From positions 224,694 to 288,693 of IMG/VR virus record IMGVR_UViG_3300017971_000185: 64,000 bases of DNA; one strand, 5' to 3'. Origin of the DNA: a virus. The position numbers were made by a program, and so were the translations under genes. Below are positions 17,251 to 48,092 of this stretch, piece by piece. Under the pieces are notes generated by a model. That model made no database searches. It saw nothing but the letters and a program-made list of their open reading frames with translations, and had not been told where the DNA came from. How positions within the stretch are numbered: the stretch's first letter is position 1; the number at the start of each line of letters is the position of its first letter.

Positions 17251-18669
17251 CTACTCAAAGGTAAGCATCGGATTCGAGGCTGTGCCGGTCTCGCCTTGGC
17301 GGCGATGCTCCGGTAGTGAGCCTCCGGCCTGACGGTTCAGGCGCCTTGGTATGAGTCCTGCGGAACTGTCCCGACGACGCCGGTATCGCCCTCGCAGCAA
17401 CTCCCCCACGTCTCGGTGATGATCGTCGAGACCGACCTGTTCGTCCTGAGAACGTCTCAGCAGGTTGATCCCTCCCACCACGTCGGCATGAGAACGTCTA
17501 CCGCAACTGCGGCAGACGAAATCGATTCCTGATCGGTTCCGTCGAGAAACGTAACCACAGGAGGGGCAAGTCTGGGACGTGTACGCCGGGTTCACCTTGA
17601 TCACCGCTGCCTTCGTCTCCAAAGAGTGGGCCAAGGCCCGGTAGGCGAACCTCTTCTGTCCCCGACATCCTTGAAGGTCGAGATCTTCGATCACGAACAC
17701 GGTGCCCTTCGGCGCATCACGGACCAGCTTGTTCGCCGTCTCTCCCGTGATGGTTTTCACCATCCCGGTGAGCTTCGACTCCAAGCGGTCGAGCCGAGGG
17801 CTGTTCTCCTTGAAACCTTGGCGCTGTCGGTTCGCACGAAGGTTCCTGACGCGTTCGTAGAGCCTGTCGAATTTGGGTTTGAGGTCGGCACCGAACGTTC
17901 GGCCGTCAGACGTGGCCGCCACCACGTTCAGGCCGACATCGACACCGATTTTAGGAGCATCTGGCTGAGGCTCGGGGACGACCCACTCCTTCTTCTCGAC
18001 AACCTCGAACCGCCATCGGCCCCGCTTGTCCTTGCGAGCGTGGACTCCCTTCGACACGTCCGAAGAGGACCCGACGTAAGGATTTCCGTTCAGCGGAAGC
18101 CAGATGACTTTCCGGCTGACCAACGTGGAGATCTTGATCCACATCGGAGCCATCGCAGCTTCGTTGGCGTCGGCCAGCGTGCAGGTGTTCTCCGACATCC
18201 GCATGGGGATACGGTCAGACACTCTCGGCGGGTTCCCGGAGACCTCGGGGTCGAGGAGAAGTTTCCAGTAGGCGTCGATGGCTTCCTGGGTGACATGCTT
18301 CCAAGGAACGGAGATCAGGTGCTTGCCCACGGTGCAGAGGGCATGTCGCTCATCTTGGGAGATCTGGCCGAACCTATGGAGACGGGTGAGGTGCTTCTTG
18401 ATGGCACGCTCGTAGGTTGCCTTGGCCCAGGTACTTACGATCTGGATGGCGTGGTCTCGTGCGTTCTTCTGGATCTGGGACGTGAGCTTTTCAGCCTTTG
18501 GGAAGAAGGCTTGTTTCTTGGACCGCTTGAGGTTGAGCCTCCGGCCATCGAACATCGCCTGCACGCAAATACGGACGTACTTGACGTACTCCACATGCAG
18601 GGCCTCCAGGGCAGCGACCTTGCCTTGGTTGGTCTCCGGGTGGAGATAGAGGTGGCGTGACTTCTTCAC
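17251..18669 (-). CDS. tnpB: TnpB-type RNA-guided nuclease (IS200/IS605 group)
   Basis: The 472-residue protein has the TnpB RuvC-like core with all three acidic residues (D244 in IGVDVGLN, E329 in VIEDLDL, D396 in HADVVGG). It also has the zinc ribbon between the last two (CPSC at 368-371, CRSC at 386-389). TnpB proteins are guided by an omega RNA from the element's right end and cut DNA, keeping the element in place. No tnpA is present, so this is a stand-alone copy. The C-terminal 60 residues after RuvC-III are low-complexity and probably overlap the omega RNA. The start is GTG 18669. It lies beside a truncated gene, which hints at insertion. Confidence 0.88.
   Translation of the reverse strand: MKKSRHLYLHPETNQGKVAALEALHVEYVKYVRICVQAMFDGRRLNLKRSKKQAFFPKAEKLTSQIQKNARDHAIQIVSTWAKATYERAIKKHLTRLHRFGQISQDERHALCTVGKHLISVPWKHVTQEAIDAYWKLLLDPEVSGNPPRVSDRIPMRMSENTCTLADANEAAMAPMWIKISTLVSRKVIWLPLNGNPYVGSSSDVSKGVHARKDKRGRWRFEVVEKKEWVVPEPQPDAPKIGVDVGLNVVAATSDGRTFGADLKPKFDRLYERVRNLRANRQRQGFKENSPRLDRLESKLTGMVKTITGETANKLVRDAPKGTVFVIEDLDLQGCRGQKRFAYRALAHSLETKAAVIKVNPAYTSQTCPSCGYVSRRNRSGIDFVCRSCGRRSHADVVGGINLLRRSQDEQVGLDDHHRDVGELLRGRYRRRRDSSAGLIPRRLNRQAGGSLPEHRRQGETGTASNPMLTFE
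17262..17480 (-). ncRNA. candidate omega RNA at the tnpB 3' end
   Basis: The last part of tnpB is unusually structured. On the minus strand GCCTGA/TCAGGC (17327-17342) and CGCC/GGCG (17292-17301) form hairpins, and further complementary GC blocks occur nearby. Known omega RNAs overlap the tnpB 3' end and carry the guide just beyond it. Exact ends and guide cannot be fixed from this sequence. Confidence 0.4.
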
Positions 18670-43023: not shown

Positions 43024-44856
43024 ATGAGCCAGATCCTTGACCGCTGGCAGGGACCGCCGGAAGGTGCCGTTGTGACAAACAAGCTCTACTACGGCGACAA
43101 CCTGGACGTCCTCACCGAGAAGATCGCCCAGGAGAGCGTTGACCTGATCTACCTCGATCCACCGTTCAACTCACAGCGAGCCTACAACCTGCTCTTCACG
43201 AGTCCGACCGGTGACGATGCGCAGGCGCAAGTCAGGGCGTTCGAGGATATGTGGCTGTGGACACCCTCGGTACGATCCGAGTACGAACGGATCACAAGCG
43301 GTGGGCTTCCAGGCGGCGTGAGCGATACGCTGCAGGCTCTCTACCGGATCATCAAAGAGAACGCCATGATGGCCTACCTCGTGATGATGGCACCACGTCT
43401 CGTTGCGATGCGTCGCGTGCTGAAATCTTCCGGCTCGATCTATCTCCACTGCGATCCCACAGCAAGCCACTACCTGAAGATCCTCATGGATGCCATCTTT
43501 CGCCCAACGTGCTTCCAGAATGAGATCATTTGGCGCAGGACTGGTTCGCACAAGGGTACCAAGAGGTACGGCCCTCTACACGATGTCATCCTCTTCTACA
43601 CGAAGAGCACGAGCGGCTACTGCTTCAACGTGGTGAAGCGTCCGTACATGCGGGGACATGTGGAGCGTCGGTATACCCGCACAGAGGATGGCCGCATGAA
43701 GTTCACGAGCGGTGGCAACGTGCTCACCGGCCAGGGTCTCCGCAAAGGGGAGTCGGGTTTGCCATGGCGAAGTTTCGATCCCAGTTCCAAAGGGCGTCAC
43801 TGGGCCATCCCTGGATTCTTGGCGCAGCAGATGTCTCCCGAGTTTGCAGAACTAGGCGTCATCGAGAGGTTGGATGCACTGTACGACGCCGGACTGGTGG
43901 AGATAACGAAGGGAGCCGCGTGGCCAACTCCCGTTCGGTACCTACAGCCTGGAGACGGGAACCTGATTTCTGATATCTGGGCCTACCAGCCTTACACCGA
44001 GGGCACCGTGCAGGATACGGAAGACGGGATAGACCGAGACGTCGCGTGGCTTGGGCCCACCGATCCCGAGCGACTCGGGTATCCCACGCAGAAACCGGTC
44101 GGGTTGCTTCAACGCATCATTGAATGCTCGACCAATCCCGACGACCTCGTGATGGATCCGTTCTGTGGCTGTGGTACGGCTCTGGACGCTGCACAGCGGC
44201 TCGGACGCCGATGGATTGGCATTGATATCTCGTTTCTGTCTGTCGACGTGCTCGACACGCGAATACGAAACACCTTCGGTGAACAAGCAGTTTACGAGGT
44301 TGATGGGGTGCCTCGCGATGTTTCGGGAGCAAACGACCTATTTGCGCGGAATCCTCTCGACTTCGAGCGGTGGGCGGTCTCATTGGCCAACGGCGAGCCG
44401 AATGACAAGCAGGTTGGCGACGAGGGTATCGACGGCCGCATTCGGTTTCCCAGTAGCGAGAAGAACCGAACGTGCACATCGATCGTCTCGGTCAAGGGTG
44501 GCGACACGGTGAATCCCTCGATGGTTAGGGACCTCGTTGGCACAGTAGCGTCCGAGCATGCAGAGATGGGTTTGCTCATCACACGCATGGACCCGACGCC
44601 AGGTATGAAAAAAGCTGCGACGAAGGCTGGCACGTACACATGGCCTGTGGCCAACGCGAAGTTTCCAAAGGTCCAGATCCTCACCGTCGCCGAGTTTTTA
44701 GACGGCAACAAACCGCAGATGCCAACACCGCTGACGCCGTACATGAAGGCGGAGGGTCGCGGCATCGGGATGCAGGCCGGTCTTTTCAATGGCTCCTTGG
44801 TCTCCCCGAAAAAGAAGGCGCAAAAGCGGAAGAAGAGGTCAAAACGCGGCAGCTAG
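43024..44856 (+). CDS. DNA methyltransferase with C-terminal Mrr-like nuclease domain
   Basis: In this 610-residue protein the methyltransferase part has the catalytic DPPFNS (45-50) before the AdoMet motif DPFCGCGTALDAA (from 378), the order of beta-class N4/N6 enzymes. The C-terminal part has an Mrr-like arrangement: FERWAVSLAN near 447, GDEGIDG (D466-G471) and VSVKGG (488-493), where the usual glutamate or glutamine of the metal site is replaced by Ser489. A basic tail follows (KKKAQKRKKRSKRG). It may modify and restrict DNA in one chain. Gaps on both sides suggest it was acquired as a cassette. Confidence 0.85.
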   Translation: MSQILDRWQGPPEGAVVTNKLYYGDNLDVLTEKIAQESVDLIYLDPPFNSQRAYNLLFTSPTGDDAQAQVRAFEDMWLWTPSVRSEYERITSGGLPGGVSDTLQALYRIIKENAMMAYLVMMAPRLVAMRRVLKSSGSIYLHCDPTASHYLKILMDAIFRPTCFQNEIIWRRTGSHKGTKRYGPLHDVILFYTKSTSGYCFNVVKRPYMRGHVERRYTRTEDGRMKFTSGGNVLTGQGLRKGESGLPWRSFDPSSKGRHWAIPGFLAQQMSPEFAELGVIERLDALYDAGLVEITKGAAWPTPVRYLQPGDGNLISDIWAYQPYTEGTVQDTEDGIDRDVAWLGPTDPERLGYPTQKPVGLLQRIIECSTNPDDLVMDPFCGCGTALDAAQRLGRRWIGIDISFLSVDVLDTRIRNTFGEQAVYEVDGVPRDVSGANDLFARNPLDFERWAVSLANGEPNDKQVGDEGIDGRIRFPSSEKNRTCTSIVSVKGGDTVNPSMVRDLVGTVASEHAEMGLLITRMDPTPGMKKAATKAGTYTWPVANAKFPKVQILTVAEFLDGNKPQMPTPLTPYMKAEGRGIGMQAGLFNGSLVSPKKKAQKRKKRSKRGS

Positions 44857-45433: not shown

Positions 45434-45659
45434 CGAGCTTACTCCGTCGTGCATCTCTCGCCTCTCCGTTCTTCAGCGGCGCGAGCAAGCCATCCCGCTC
45501 GTCCAACCACTCCAGAGCATCCGCAATGTCTGGGTGAGGCGTGAGCGTCCGAGCCAACCGCTCGATGGCTAGTTGCAGACGAGGCCCCTTACGATCTGAC
45601 AATCGCGTCTCGTGCCAGACCGCAACGACCGCTCTCGCCGCAATCTCTTGCTCAGCCAT
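45414..45659 (-). CDS. unknown helical protein
   Basis: An 81-residue helical protein (MAEQEIAARAVVAVWHETRL). ATG 45659 overlaps the preceding gene by eight bases. Confidence 0.6.
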   Translation of the reverse strand: MAEQEIAARAVVAVWHETRLSDRKGPRLQLAIERLARTLTPHPDIADALEWLDERDGLLAPLKNGEARDARRSKLDAEDRL

Positions 45660-46053
45660 GGGTGGCCTCCGGCAGATCGACATGAAAATATGGCATCCCT
45701 CCAGGGAGGGAAGACCACATCTCCCTCGGAAACGAATACTTTGCGAGCCCCGCTCCGACCGCCATGCACATCAGAAGCTCCATGGTCGGATGCTCAGCCC
45801 AGTGGTTCCCGTGCCGATCCATGCACATTGCCAGAAACGAGTGCCCGCCTCCCTTGTCCTTCATGAATTCGTCGGGCAAGTCACGGAGCATCTCGATGAG
45901 CCGCGGTTTGCTCTCTTCCAGGCGCCTTGGATGGAACCCGAATTTGTGCATGATCCCAACCACGACTATCGCATCGTCAGGCACACCACCGGGCTCATCG
46001 TCATCGAACAAGCAGCCCTTGAACAACTCCCGCACTTCTTCGCCTTTCAGCAC
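45652..46053 (-). CDS. unknown protein
   Basis: A 133-residue protein with a Gly/Asp-rich N-terminal part and HSFLAMCMDRHGNHWAEH in the middle. It overlaps both neighbours by seven or eight bases. Confidence 0.6.
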   Translation of the reverse strand: MLKGEEVRELFKGCLFDDDEPGGVPDDAIVVVGIMHKFGFHPRRLEESKPRLIEMLRDLPDEFMKDKGGGHSFLAMCMDRHGNHWAEHPTMELLMCMAVGAGLAKYSFPREMWSSLPGGMPYFHVDLPEATHG

Positions 46054-46241
46054 TCATCACCTTCCTTGTCTGCAAGCTCCGCGAGCACGGCGTAGCGTTT
46101 TTCGTCCAAACGACCCTCAACCACCAAACCAAGCTGGAGCAGTTGCTTGTGTTGCTTCGGAGCATCCGCCCAAGGCAAAAGACCCCCTGCTGCCTTCAGC
46201 GCGTCGAGCCTCTTCTGTAGTTTTTCACTCAGGGTTGTCAT
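46047..46241 (-). CDS. small winged-helix-like protein
   Basis: In this 64-residue protein LLQLGLVVEGRLDEKRYAVL fits the wing of the small winged-helix set. It overlaps the Topo mini-A-like gene by four bases. Confidence 0.5.
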   Translation of the reverse strand: MTTLSEKLQKRLDALKAAGGLLPWADAPKQHKQLLQLGLVVEGRLDEKRYAVLAELADKEGDEC

Positions 46242-47155
46242 GCCAGGTCGTCCCCCTGCCCGAAATCTTCCACTACCTCATCCCACCGATCCGAGACTTC
46301 TCTCAGAAGACGGCGGCCTTCCTGCTCTACCTCGACACGTTCGTTGTAGAGATCGATGTCGAGGTAGTGCTGGATGCGATTCTGAATCAGCCGGTTGAGC
46401 GTGGCAGGCTCCAGAGCATCTAGCTCCCAGGAGTCTTCACCAAACTCGGCACGATAGCTCTCGAATCGAGAATCCGTCGTCTTGGCCGGGTTGGGTGGCG
46501 GCTGGTGCTTCAAGATCTGGTCCATGTTGAGCGCGATGCGATCGATCTTCACGGAGACACCGAACAACTCGTTGTTGCGGTCATCGATGTCTCTGGTCAT
46601 GTCGATGCCGCTTGGATCGTGGTCACCCAGGTGGATGATGACCGGCTCCTGCCCCTGCCGTCGATAGCCCTCAAACCGCCTGGCCGCGCGCCACATCTCG
46701 CTCTGACTCGTATACCCCTTGCACGCGAAGTAGGGGCAGTCCCACGCATCGGCAGCTTGTCCGACGACACTTACAAGGGCCTCCTTCTCGATCCACGTCT
46801 CACAGCGATACTCCTGTCCTTCCCATTTGTCCACGGCAAACGTGCGGGCACAGACTTCCACGATGTCGGCGGGAGTCTCCCAATGCGGATTCTTCTGTAG
46901 TGCGCGGGTACGGTCCTCGATGGCTTCCCAATCGAGCATACCAGCGAGACGACCGTCGTTGATGATGCTCCCGAGACGCGAATAGCTCGTCTGCGTGTTG
47001 GGGATCATGTCCGCCGCCACGAAGCGGTAGTAAAGCTGGCGCAGAGTGAGAGTCAGCCCTTGCCTGGCGTAGTCCTCGATGATGCGGTTCGCGTACTCGA
47101 TGATGTCGAGCGACGACCGTCTGAAATTCCTCTCGATGTATGCGATCTTCGGCAT
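46238..47155 (-). CDS. Spo11/Topo VI-A-like protein (Topo mini-A type)
   Basis: The 305-residue protein has an N-terminal winged-helix part with LRQLYYRFV at 38-46 (Y42/Y43 as possible DNA-linked tyrosine). It has a TOPRIM domain with EKEALVSVVG (E123/E125) and HLGDHDPSGIDM (D178, D180), the metal-binding pattern of Topo VI A and Spo11. No B subunit is visible, as in the mini-A proteins reported from mobile elements. It may make DNA breaks for replication, recombination or attack on competing DNA. It belongs to the long minus-strand operon. Confidence 0.75.
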   Translation of the reverse strand: MPKIAYIERNFRRSSLDIIEYANRIIEDYARQGLTLTLRQLYYRFVAADMIPNTQTSYSRLGSIINDGRLAGMLDWEAIEDRTRALQKNPHWETPADIVEVCARTFAVDKWEGQEYRCETWIEKEALVSVVGQAADAWDCPYFACKGYTSQSEMWRAARRFEGYRRQGQEPVIIHLGDHDPSGIDMTRDIDDRNNELFGVSVKIDRIALNMDQILKHQPPPNPAKTTDSRFESYRAEFGEDSWELDALEPATLNRLIQNRIQHYLDIDLYNERVEVEQEGRRLLREVSDRWDEVVEDFGQGDDLA

Positions 47156-47158
47156 CGC

Positions 47159-47410
47159 TCACTCCTGCACACCCGGCGGCACGAATCCTCTTTCTCGGAT
47201 CCGAGCCGCCTTTTCATCCGCTTCCCTCATTTCCCTCATGAGAGCATCGTCAAGGTCCTTGTACATCGCGTAAACAAGCCGGTCTCTTGCCCAAACCAAT
47301 GGCGAAACAGTCGTTTTCTCTGGGGCGACACCGCTGTTTCGGGCATCCTCCATCGCCCACACGTCATGCATCATGCGGGCTTCTCTCGCTGGTATGTGGT
47401 CCCACGTCAT
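47159..47410 (-). CDS. unknown helical protein
   Basis: An 83-residue helical protein with a charged middle (MYKDLDDALMREMREADEKA). It overlaps the upstream gene by four bases. Confidence 0.6.
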   Translation of the reverse strand: MTWDHIPAREARMMHDVWAMEDARNSGVAPEKTTVSPLVWARDRLVYAMYKDLDDALMREMREADEKAARIRERGFVPPGVQE

Positions 47411-47754
47411 GCTTCCTCGGTGTAATCATCTATATCCGCAGCAATCGCTTCTCGTATCTTTTCCCTCAATACGTGAAGGTCGTCATCCCTGTTTCGAGAC
47501 TCCTGATACTCCTGATCGCCCACGTGGAGAACCAAGCCATCCCACTGGGCCACACGCATACACAAAGCCCGAAACCGATCTGCCCGAGCACGTTGCCGTT
47601 CCCACTGCCTCGTGATCGCGTCGAGCATCGTCTGGATGTTCTGCGGGATCTCAACCGGAGGTTTGCGCCGCCGCGCCGCAACAGCATAGCCGCCCACGAA
47701 TCCGGCGACGGCCACGGCAATGACAATGAGTGAGGGTATCCACGCTTCCATCAT
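47407..47754 (-). CDS. membrane-anchored protein (paralogue 2)
   Basis: The 115-residue protein has an N-terminal transmembrane helix (IPSLIVIAVAVAGFVGGYAV) and a helical soluble part with RARADRFRALCMRVAQWDG and LREKIREAI. The same pattern appears in the adjacent gene, so the two arose by tandem duplication. This build resembles spanin-like or Rz-like proteins, but no lipobox partner is visible. Confidence 0.65.
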   Translation of the reverse strand: MMEAWIPSLIVIAVAVAGFVGGYAVAARRRKPPVEIPQNIQTMLDAITRQWERQRARADRFRALCMRVAQWDGLVLHVGDQEYQESRNRDDDLHVLREKIREAIAADIDDYTEEA

Positions 47755-48092
47755 GGCACTGACCTTCCCGTCTCATCGAGATCAGGACCGAGCCAGTCCG
47801 TGCGAATGGCGCTCCGAATCTCGTCTCTCAAAGCCTCGAAAGGCTTGGCGTGCTCATCGAGAACAACCGTGCCTCTCCACTGCTCCACACGCCGACACAG
47901 ATCCGAGTACCGATCCGCGCGCTTCTGCTCACGTGTCGTCTGTTTCACGGACGAATCCAGCGCGTCTCCGAGAGTCTTTTCGAGACATCGTTTGGTCTCC
48001 CGAAACGAAGTCCAAGCAGCGACGTAGCCAGCCCCGAGACCAGCAAGGGCCGACGCGAGCATGAGCAGCAATAGTAGCCATCCTTCGATCAT
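47751..48092 (-). CDS. membrane-anchored protein (paralogue 1)
   Basis: The 113-residue protein has an N-terminal membrane helix (WLLLLLMLASALAGLGAGYV), then KRADRYSDLCRRVEQWRG and LRDEIRSAI, parallel to its downstream neighbour. Its start and ribosome site lie in a 60-base tandem duplication. Confidence 0.65.
   Translation of the reverse strand: MIEGWLLLLLMLASALAGLGAGYVAAWTSFRETKRCLEKTLGDALDSSVKQTTREQKRADRYSDLCRRVEQWRGTVVLDEHAKPFEALRDEIRSAIRTDWLGPDLDETGRSVP

Follow-up and report, generated by a model that had tools for sequence, protein, structure and literature searches.

Mini-A in a jumbo phage: a stand-alone relative of the Topo VI/Spo11 DNA-cutting subunit

A Mini-A gene in a jumbo-phage record

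Topo VI is an A2B2 assembly in which the DNA-cutting A subunits are paired with B subunits that combine a GHKL domain with a transducer. A phage gene whose product resembles the A subunit but stands without a visible ATPase partner raises the questions of what kind of protein it encodes and how that protein might act on DNA. We examined such a gene in a 64,000-nucleotide stretch (the window) of a virus record of 497,194 bases, a jumbo phage; the record carries no terminal repeats and so may be incomplete. The gene lies on the minus strand (46238–47155), starts with ATG, encodes 305 amino acids, and is present as a single copy in the record. Its product matches phrog_6247, “DNA topoisomerase”, across residues 3–296 of 305 (E = 1e-111), and tblastn recovers it from 74 phage records, each covering more than 80% of its length, which together rule out a chance reading frame. 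A first-pass annotation had proposed a Spo11/Topo VI-A-like protein here. The phrog_6247 match, the catalytic set, and the predicted folds agree on that identity, and the 305-residue product is an intact-looking, stand-alone relative of the Topo VI/Spo11 DNA-cutting subunit.

The idea that a phage homolog of Topo VI-A without a B subunit would be undescribed does not hold, as the type has already been named and published. In PMC7614492, PMC8185306, and PMC11302465, B-less Topo VI-A homologs of viruses and mobile elements appear as Mini-A, described in 2020. They are characterized there as truncated Top6A homologs of archaeal viruses and bacteriophages, with the protein of phage NP1 drawn as an example (PMC7614492), and these three reviews report neither a function nor a biochemical activity for them. 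Over its full length, the window protein shares 45% identity with the Mini-A of Pseudomonas phage NP1 (E 7e-91), and its membership in the family is firm. It has in common with NP1-type Mini-A (phrog_6247) its size, the same invariant residues, the lack of a B subunit, and an association with viruses and mobile elements.

Beyond the phage records, Mini-A relatives are found in 47 plasmids; in profile scans, bacterial and archaeal genomes yield 217 loci and viral contigs at least 583. A quick tree scatters the family over many bacterial phyla and archaea and groups the window copy weakly with two viral contigs. The other Mini-A phages examined are mostly of 35–90 kb, with some viral contigs reaching ~160–240 kb, whereas the window copy resides in a 497-kb jumbo record. 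The window gene is a jumbo-phage addition to an already known and widespread kind, an A subunit that occurs in nature with no evident B subunit.

Predicted fold and catalytic residues

The AlphaFold2 model of the window protein has a pLDDT of 93 and a pTM of 0.83. A Foldseek search of the PDB with this model returns three matches below E 1e-3, all of them Topo VI-A chains. The global TM-scores against Topo VI-A in Foldseek are low (0.33–0.38), which suggests that the angle between the two domains differs in the Mini-A model. The winged-helix (5Y-CAP-like) domain, predicted alone, spans residues ~12–83 (46907–47122, minus strand) and carries Tyr43. Its best VIA match is Topo VI-A 1d3y (Z 7.9, 2.1 Å over 69 residues), with model residues 12–83 paired to residues 72–143 of the chain; other winged helices score Z 6.2 and below in VIA-align. 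The TOPRIM domain, placed by VIA-align at residues ~115–264 (46364–46813, minus strand), contains E123-K124 and G177-D-H-D180-P-S-G183, and aligns with Topo VI-A 1d3y, MksG, JetD, and Spo11 at Z-scores of 11.2, 11.0, 10.6, and 9.2, respectively. Assuming gap-free alignment, the match ranges place Y43 on residue 103 of 1d3y and E123 on residue 197, which we take to be active-site residues of that protein. Structure prediction, a check named in the first-pass annotation, finds both the 5Y-CAP-like and the TOPRIM fold in the model and by VIA-align. Pfam Topo VI-A models (TP6A_N) miss Mini-A or match it at noise level, a sequence-profile search of the PDB with Mini-A found no chain, and hhalign against Topo VI-A is weak (P 0.03–0.05); the assignment therefore rests on the motifs, the fold, and direct similarity to a published Mini-A.

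The YY motif of the winged-helix part and the TOPRIM E...DHD pattern that had been noted from the sequence are both present, as YY at positions 42–43, EK at 123–124, and GDHDPSG at 177–183. R39, Y43, E123, K124, G177, D178, D180, P181, and G183 are invariant among 26 diverse relatives with identities down to 24%. The same positions are invariant in 72 closer relatives, with the exception of G177, which is nearly so. Within the YY pair, only the second tyrosine is invariant among the 26, and Y42 is not. The codon of this presumed catalytic Tyr43, conserved in 26/26 and 72/72 aligned relatives, lies at 47027–47029 on the minus strand.

Two relatives carry irregular copies of the gene. In the Mini-A of Clavibacter phage 33 (L022:5989–6978), ~30 residues that include the catalytic EKEA segment of TOPRIM are duplicated in tandem, either genuinely or through an assembly error. 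In RDJL Phi 1 (NC_015466, L017), the Mini-A gene is broken across two frames, perhaps through a frameshift or a sequencing error, and its annotation lists a short topoisomerase and, antisense, a hypothetical protein.

Mini-A resembles the A subunit of Topo VI in its winged helix, its TOPRIM domain, and its Tyr/E/DxD catalytic set. Genuine Topo VI-A proteins are ~360–370 residues long and carry extra N-terminal sequence ahead of the winged helix, whereas the 305-residue window protein lacks that stretch. The tyrosine accordingly falls at a median position of 43 in Mini-A versus 96–106 in genuine Topo VI-A, leaving Mini-A ~55–60 residues shorter before it. The window protein holds only the winged helix and TOPRIM, with no fused B-type ATPase part. 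Topo VIII enzymes are likewise type IIB and reside in mobile elements of bacteria and archaea (PMC7614492, PMC8185306), but they are characterized as larger, with B functions, and usually homodimeric, whereas Mini-A has no B part. The likeness to Spo11 lies in the A-subunit fold and the predicted tyrosine chemistry; mouse SPO11, acting alone in vitro, introduces covalent double-strand breaks, and it is also able to reseal single-strand nicks (PMC11922746). Spo11 is, however, a eukaryotic, meiotic protein that acts with B-like and other partners in vivo, while Mini-A is a phage gene. The MksG and JetD proteins of Wadjet systems share the TOPRIM dimer-type nuclease fold, but lack a 5Y-CAP tyrosine and act with SMC-type complexes (PMC10123090), whereas Mini-A has Y43. 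Family searches and PADLOC found no SMC-type complex genes near the window Mini-A.

The B subunit and a sacsin-like GHKL protein

The claim that no ATPase partner is visible was borne out by searching the rest of the genome, which revealed no Topo VI-B subunit in the 497-kb record. Searches of this possibly incomplete record with HATPase_c, the Topo-VIb transducer, and type IIA A-subunit models were all empty. HATPase_c_3 gave one weak GHKL match, to a truncated sacsin-like protein. The same HATPase_c_3 search matches all 14 of 14 control genomes, but none of 19 complete Mini-A phage and plasmid records and only 1 of 43 Mini-A viral contigs. Genuine Topo VI-A genes, taken as a yardstick, mostly adjoin their B gene. 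A recognizable B gene is missing here and from nearly all relatives examined, and the absence looks family-wide. In three archaeal bins that carry Mini-A and are probably incomplete, no Topo VI-A genes were found.

B-like subunits of eukaryotes may lack the GHKL domain entirely, as Rec102 does (PMC11746154), so a GHKL search is blind to a diverged, transducer-only partner. The interface between Spo11 and Rec102 is formed mostly by winged-helix helices, to which the N-terminal extension of Spo11 adds a smaller share (PMC11746154).

The weak match belongs to a family of ~485-residue proteins with a sacsin-like GHKL ATPase N-terminus and a HEFGH peptidase-like C-terminus. The family occurs in 61 viral contigs, several jumbo phages included, with members at L029:2995–4452 and L163:3750–5216 and in L215, L238, and L218. 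The copy in the present genome (at ~10.6 kb of G000:C1; L003:1156–1842, minus strand) is cut to 228 residues and lies ~260 kb from Mini-A. A scan of up to 10 kb on each side of 58 GHKL loci found Mini-A at 6 of them, each time on the GHKL strand and no more than 2 kb away; the six represent three independent phage groups and two gene orders. Around a methyltransferase gene used as control, none of 58 loci had Mini-A. With three groups by lineage and a control set of one protein family, this co-location is statistically infirm. When whole records are searched, 7 of the 50 with a GHKL protein also contain Mini-A, in one case only as a distant match, and the other 43 do not. Conversely, the GHKL protein was found in at most 1 of the 43 viral and in 0 of the 19 phage and plasmid Mini-A records. 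In the phages that have both, the association is genuine, yet it is uncommon and not obligatory.

As a general stand-in for the missing B subunit, the GHKL protein was rejected: a relative of 485 residues occurs in a jumbo phage that has no Mini-A, the family resembles sacsin and has a peptidase-like motif, the copy in this genome is truncated, and comparing profiles with Topo VI-B brought up no transducer similarity. Its co-location with Mini-A keeps it as a lead of low probability. It is very improbable that some phage Mini-A proteins work with this sacsin-like GHKL ATPase and its HEFGH peptidase-like domain as an unrecognized partner in trans. Such a pairing would constitute a new ATP- and protease-gated DNA-breaking machine, of which the present jumbo phage would hold a decayed version. 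Beside the GHKL gene of LR745208 is a gene (L029:4461–5489) for a 342-residue protein that, judged by eye, appears to combine an HNH domain with an RNA-ligase-like part.

Genomic context and possible functions

From 48092 to 45414, the window contains tightly packed genes for small proteins, all on the minus strand. An 83-residue ORF without a family (47159–47410) lies directly upstream of Mini-A, with a 3-bp gap. It is preceded by two further ORFs that have no family match and encode proteins of 115 (47407–47754) and 113 residues (47751–48092). Both products display the same layout of a hydrophobic N-terminus and a charged tail; judged by eye, the two adjacent proteins are probably paralogues. 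Downstream, a 64-residue ORF (46047–46241) shares a 4-bp ATGA overlap with the Mini-A stop and has no family, and the next gene encodes a 133-residue phage protein (phrog_26039; 45652–46053, E 1.7e-34). The first-pass annotation had placed Mini-A in an operon with small membrane proteins and a winged-helix protein: the tight one-strand packing and the small proteins with hydrophobic N-termini stand, while the winged-helix assignment of the 64-residue neighbor finds no significant family.

Reading meaning into this setting proved uninformative. No neighbor is conserved across 188 Mini-A loci, the best family occurring in 23 of 188 and lying ~4 kb away. The directly adjacent genes encode repressors, helicases, polymerases, HNH nucleases, and unknowns, with no family above 4 of 75. 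A conserved operon partner for Mini-A was rejected on these counts. The window neighbors, small proteins without assigned function rather than replication genes, are unlike those in several cultured phages: PaMx25, NP1, Phobos, RDJL Phi 1, RcRudolph, BirdInFrench, and Delta have Mini-A among genes for replication or recombination. They include primase, RNase H, ThyX, ligase, a Sak4 annealing protein, and a Cas4 exonuclease in PaMx25, a DNA polymerase in RDJL Phi 1 and Phobos, and a RuvC-like resolvase in BirdInFrench.

Some neighbors recur on a smaller scale. In PaMx25, Delta, and SPN19 (L018, L019, and L002), Mini-A has a ThyX-type thymidylate synthase gene next to it or nearby, and a gene for a DUF2786 protein directly precedes Mini-A in Pam3 (L001) and RHph_TM26 (L015). 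A ThyX/base-hypermodification context, seen in Pam3, PaMx25, SPN19, and Delta, was considered as a functional link and set aside; most phages lack it.

With moderate confidence, we propose that Mini-A is a homodimer that cuts DNA through 5′-phosphotyrosyl bonds, without ATP or a B subunit, likely in phage replication or recombination. On the model of Topo VI and mouse SPO11, we infer that two copies would pair through their TOPRIM domains, so that Tyr43 in the winged helix of one subunit would meet the metal site (E123, D178, and D180) of the other. The dimer would then cut duplex DNA by forming 5′-phosphotyrosyl links and might reseal it, ATP and a B subunit being unneeded, and the phage could use the controlled breaks or swivels for its own replication or recombination, a role that we suggest tentatively. 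Because mouse SPO11 alone cuts in vitro, the main objection to B-independence falls. A protein of this kind offers a clean test of ATPase-free type IIB cleavage and its control, a question long posed for Spo11.

A close rival to the break-making dimer is a small ATP-independent topoisomerase, which would relax supercoils through nicks or cuts that it then reseals, and so release replication stress; it is close because ATP-free relaxation of supercoils is on record for one Topo VIII enzyme (PMC7614492). Resealing of nicks by SPO11 (PMC11922746), the retention in Mini-A of all residues for reversible tyrosine chemistry, and the empty type IIA A-subunit search of the 497-kb record are consistent with this role, although no ATPase or transducer is present for directed strand passage. 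The two readings share their evidence base and are computationally inseparable; we regard the topoisomerase as possible but not probable. It is unlikely that Mini-A needs a partner in trans, whether a Rec102-like transducer-only protein, the sacsin-like GHKL/peptidase-like protein, or a host protein, to control cleavage or drive strand passage. Topo VI and Spo11 do both act with B-type partners in vivo (PMC11746154), and the GHKL genes close to Mini-A, along with the truncated member in this genome, point the same way. Weighing against such a partner are the rarity of joint occurrence in both directions, the sacsin-like and peptidase-like character of the GHKL protein, the shortened and distant local copy, and the lack of any other conserved neighbor.

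Two further explanations take Mini-A away from service to phage DNA or from catalysis altogether. A counter-element nuclease resembling MksG/JetD, which would destroy host or competing DNA, would fit the TOPRIM domain, which scores almost as high against MksG and JetD as against Topo VI-A, and the presence of Mini-A on plasmids and in many bacterial genomes, at some loci with integrases or repressors. This role is less likely since the 5Y-CAP-like domain of MksG has no tyrosine (PMC10123090), while Y43 is invariant in Mini-A; PADLOC gives no match, and there is no SMC-type or other fixed partner, making the nuclease quite improbable. Mini-A might also have lost catalysis and only bind or bend DNA. 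To this reading we give the least credence, as Y43, R39, E123, K124, and D178/D180 are invariant across the 72 and 26 diverse sequences.

Elsewhere in the window, a plus-strand gene at 43024–44856 encodes a 610-residue N6/N4 DNA methyltransferase with a C-terminal Mrr/NA-iREase1-like domain, and a transposase-like gene (phrog_12300, phrog_506) lies within the jumbo phage at 17251–18669 on the minus strand.
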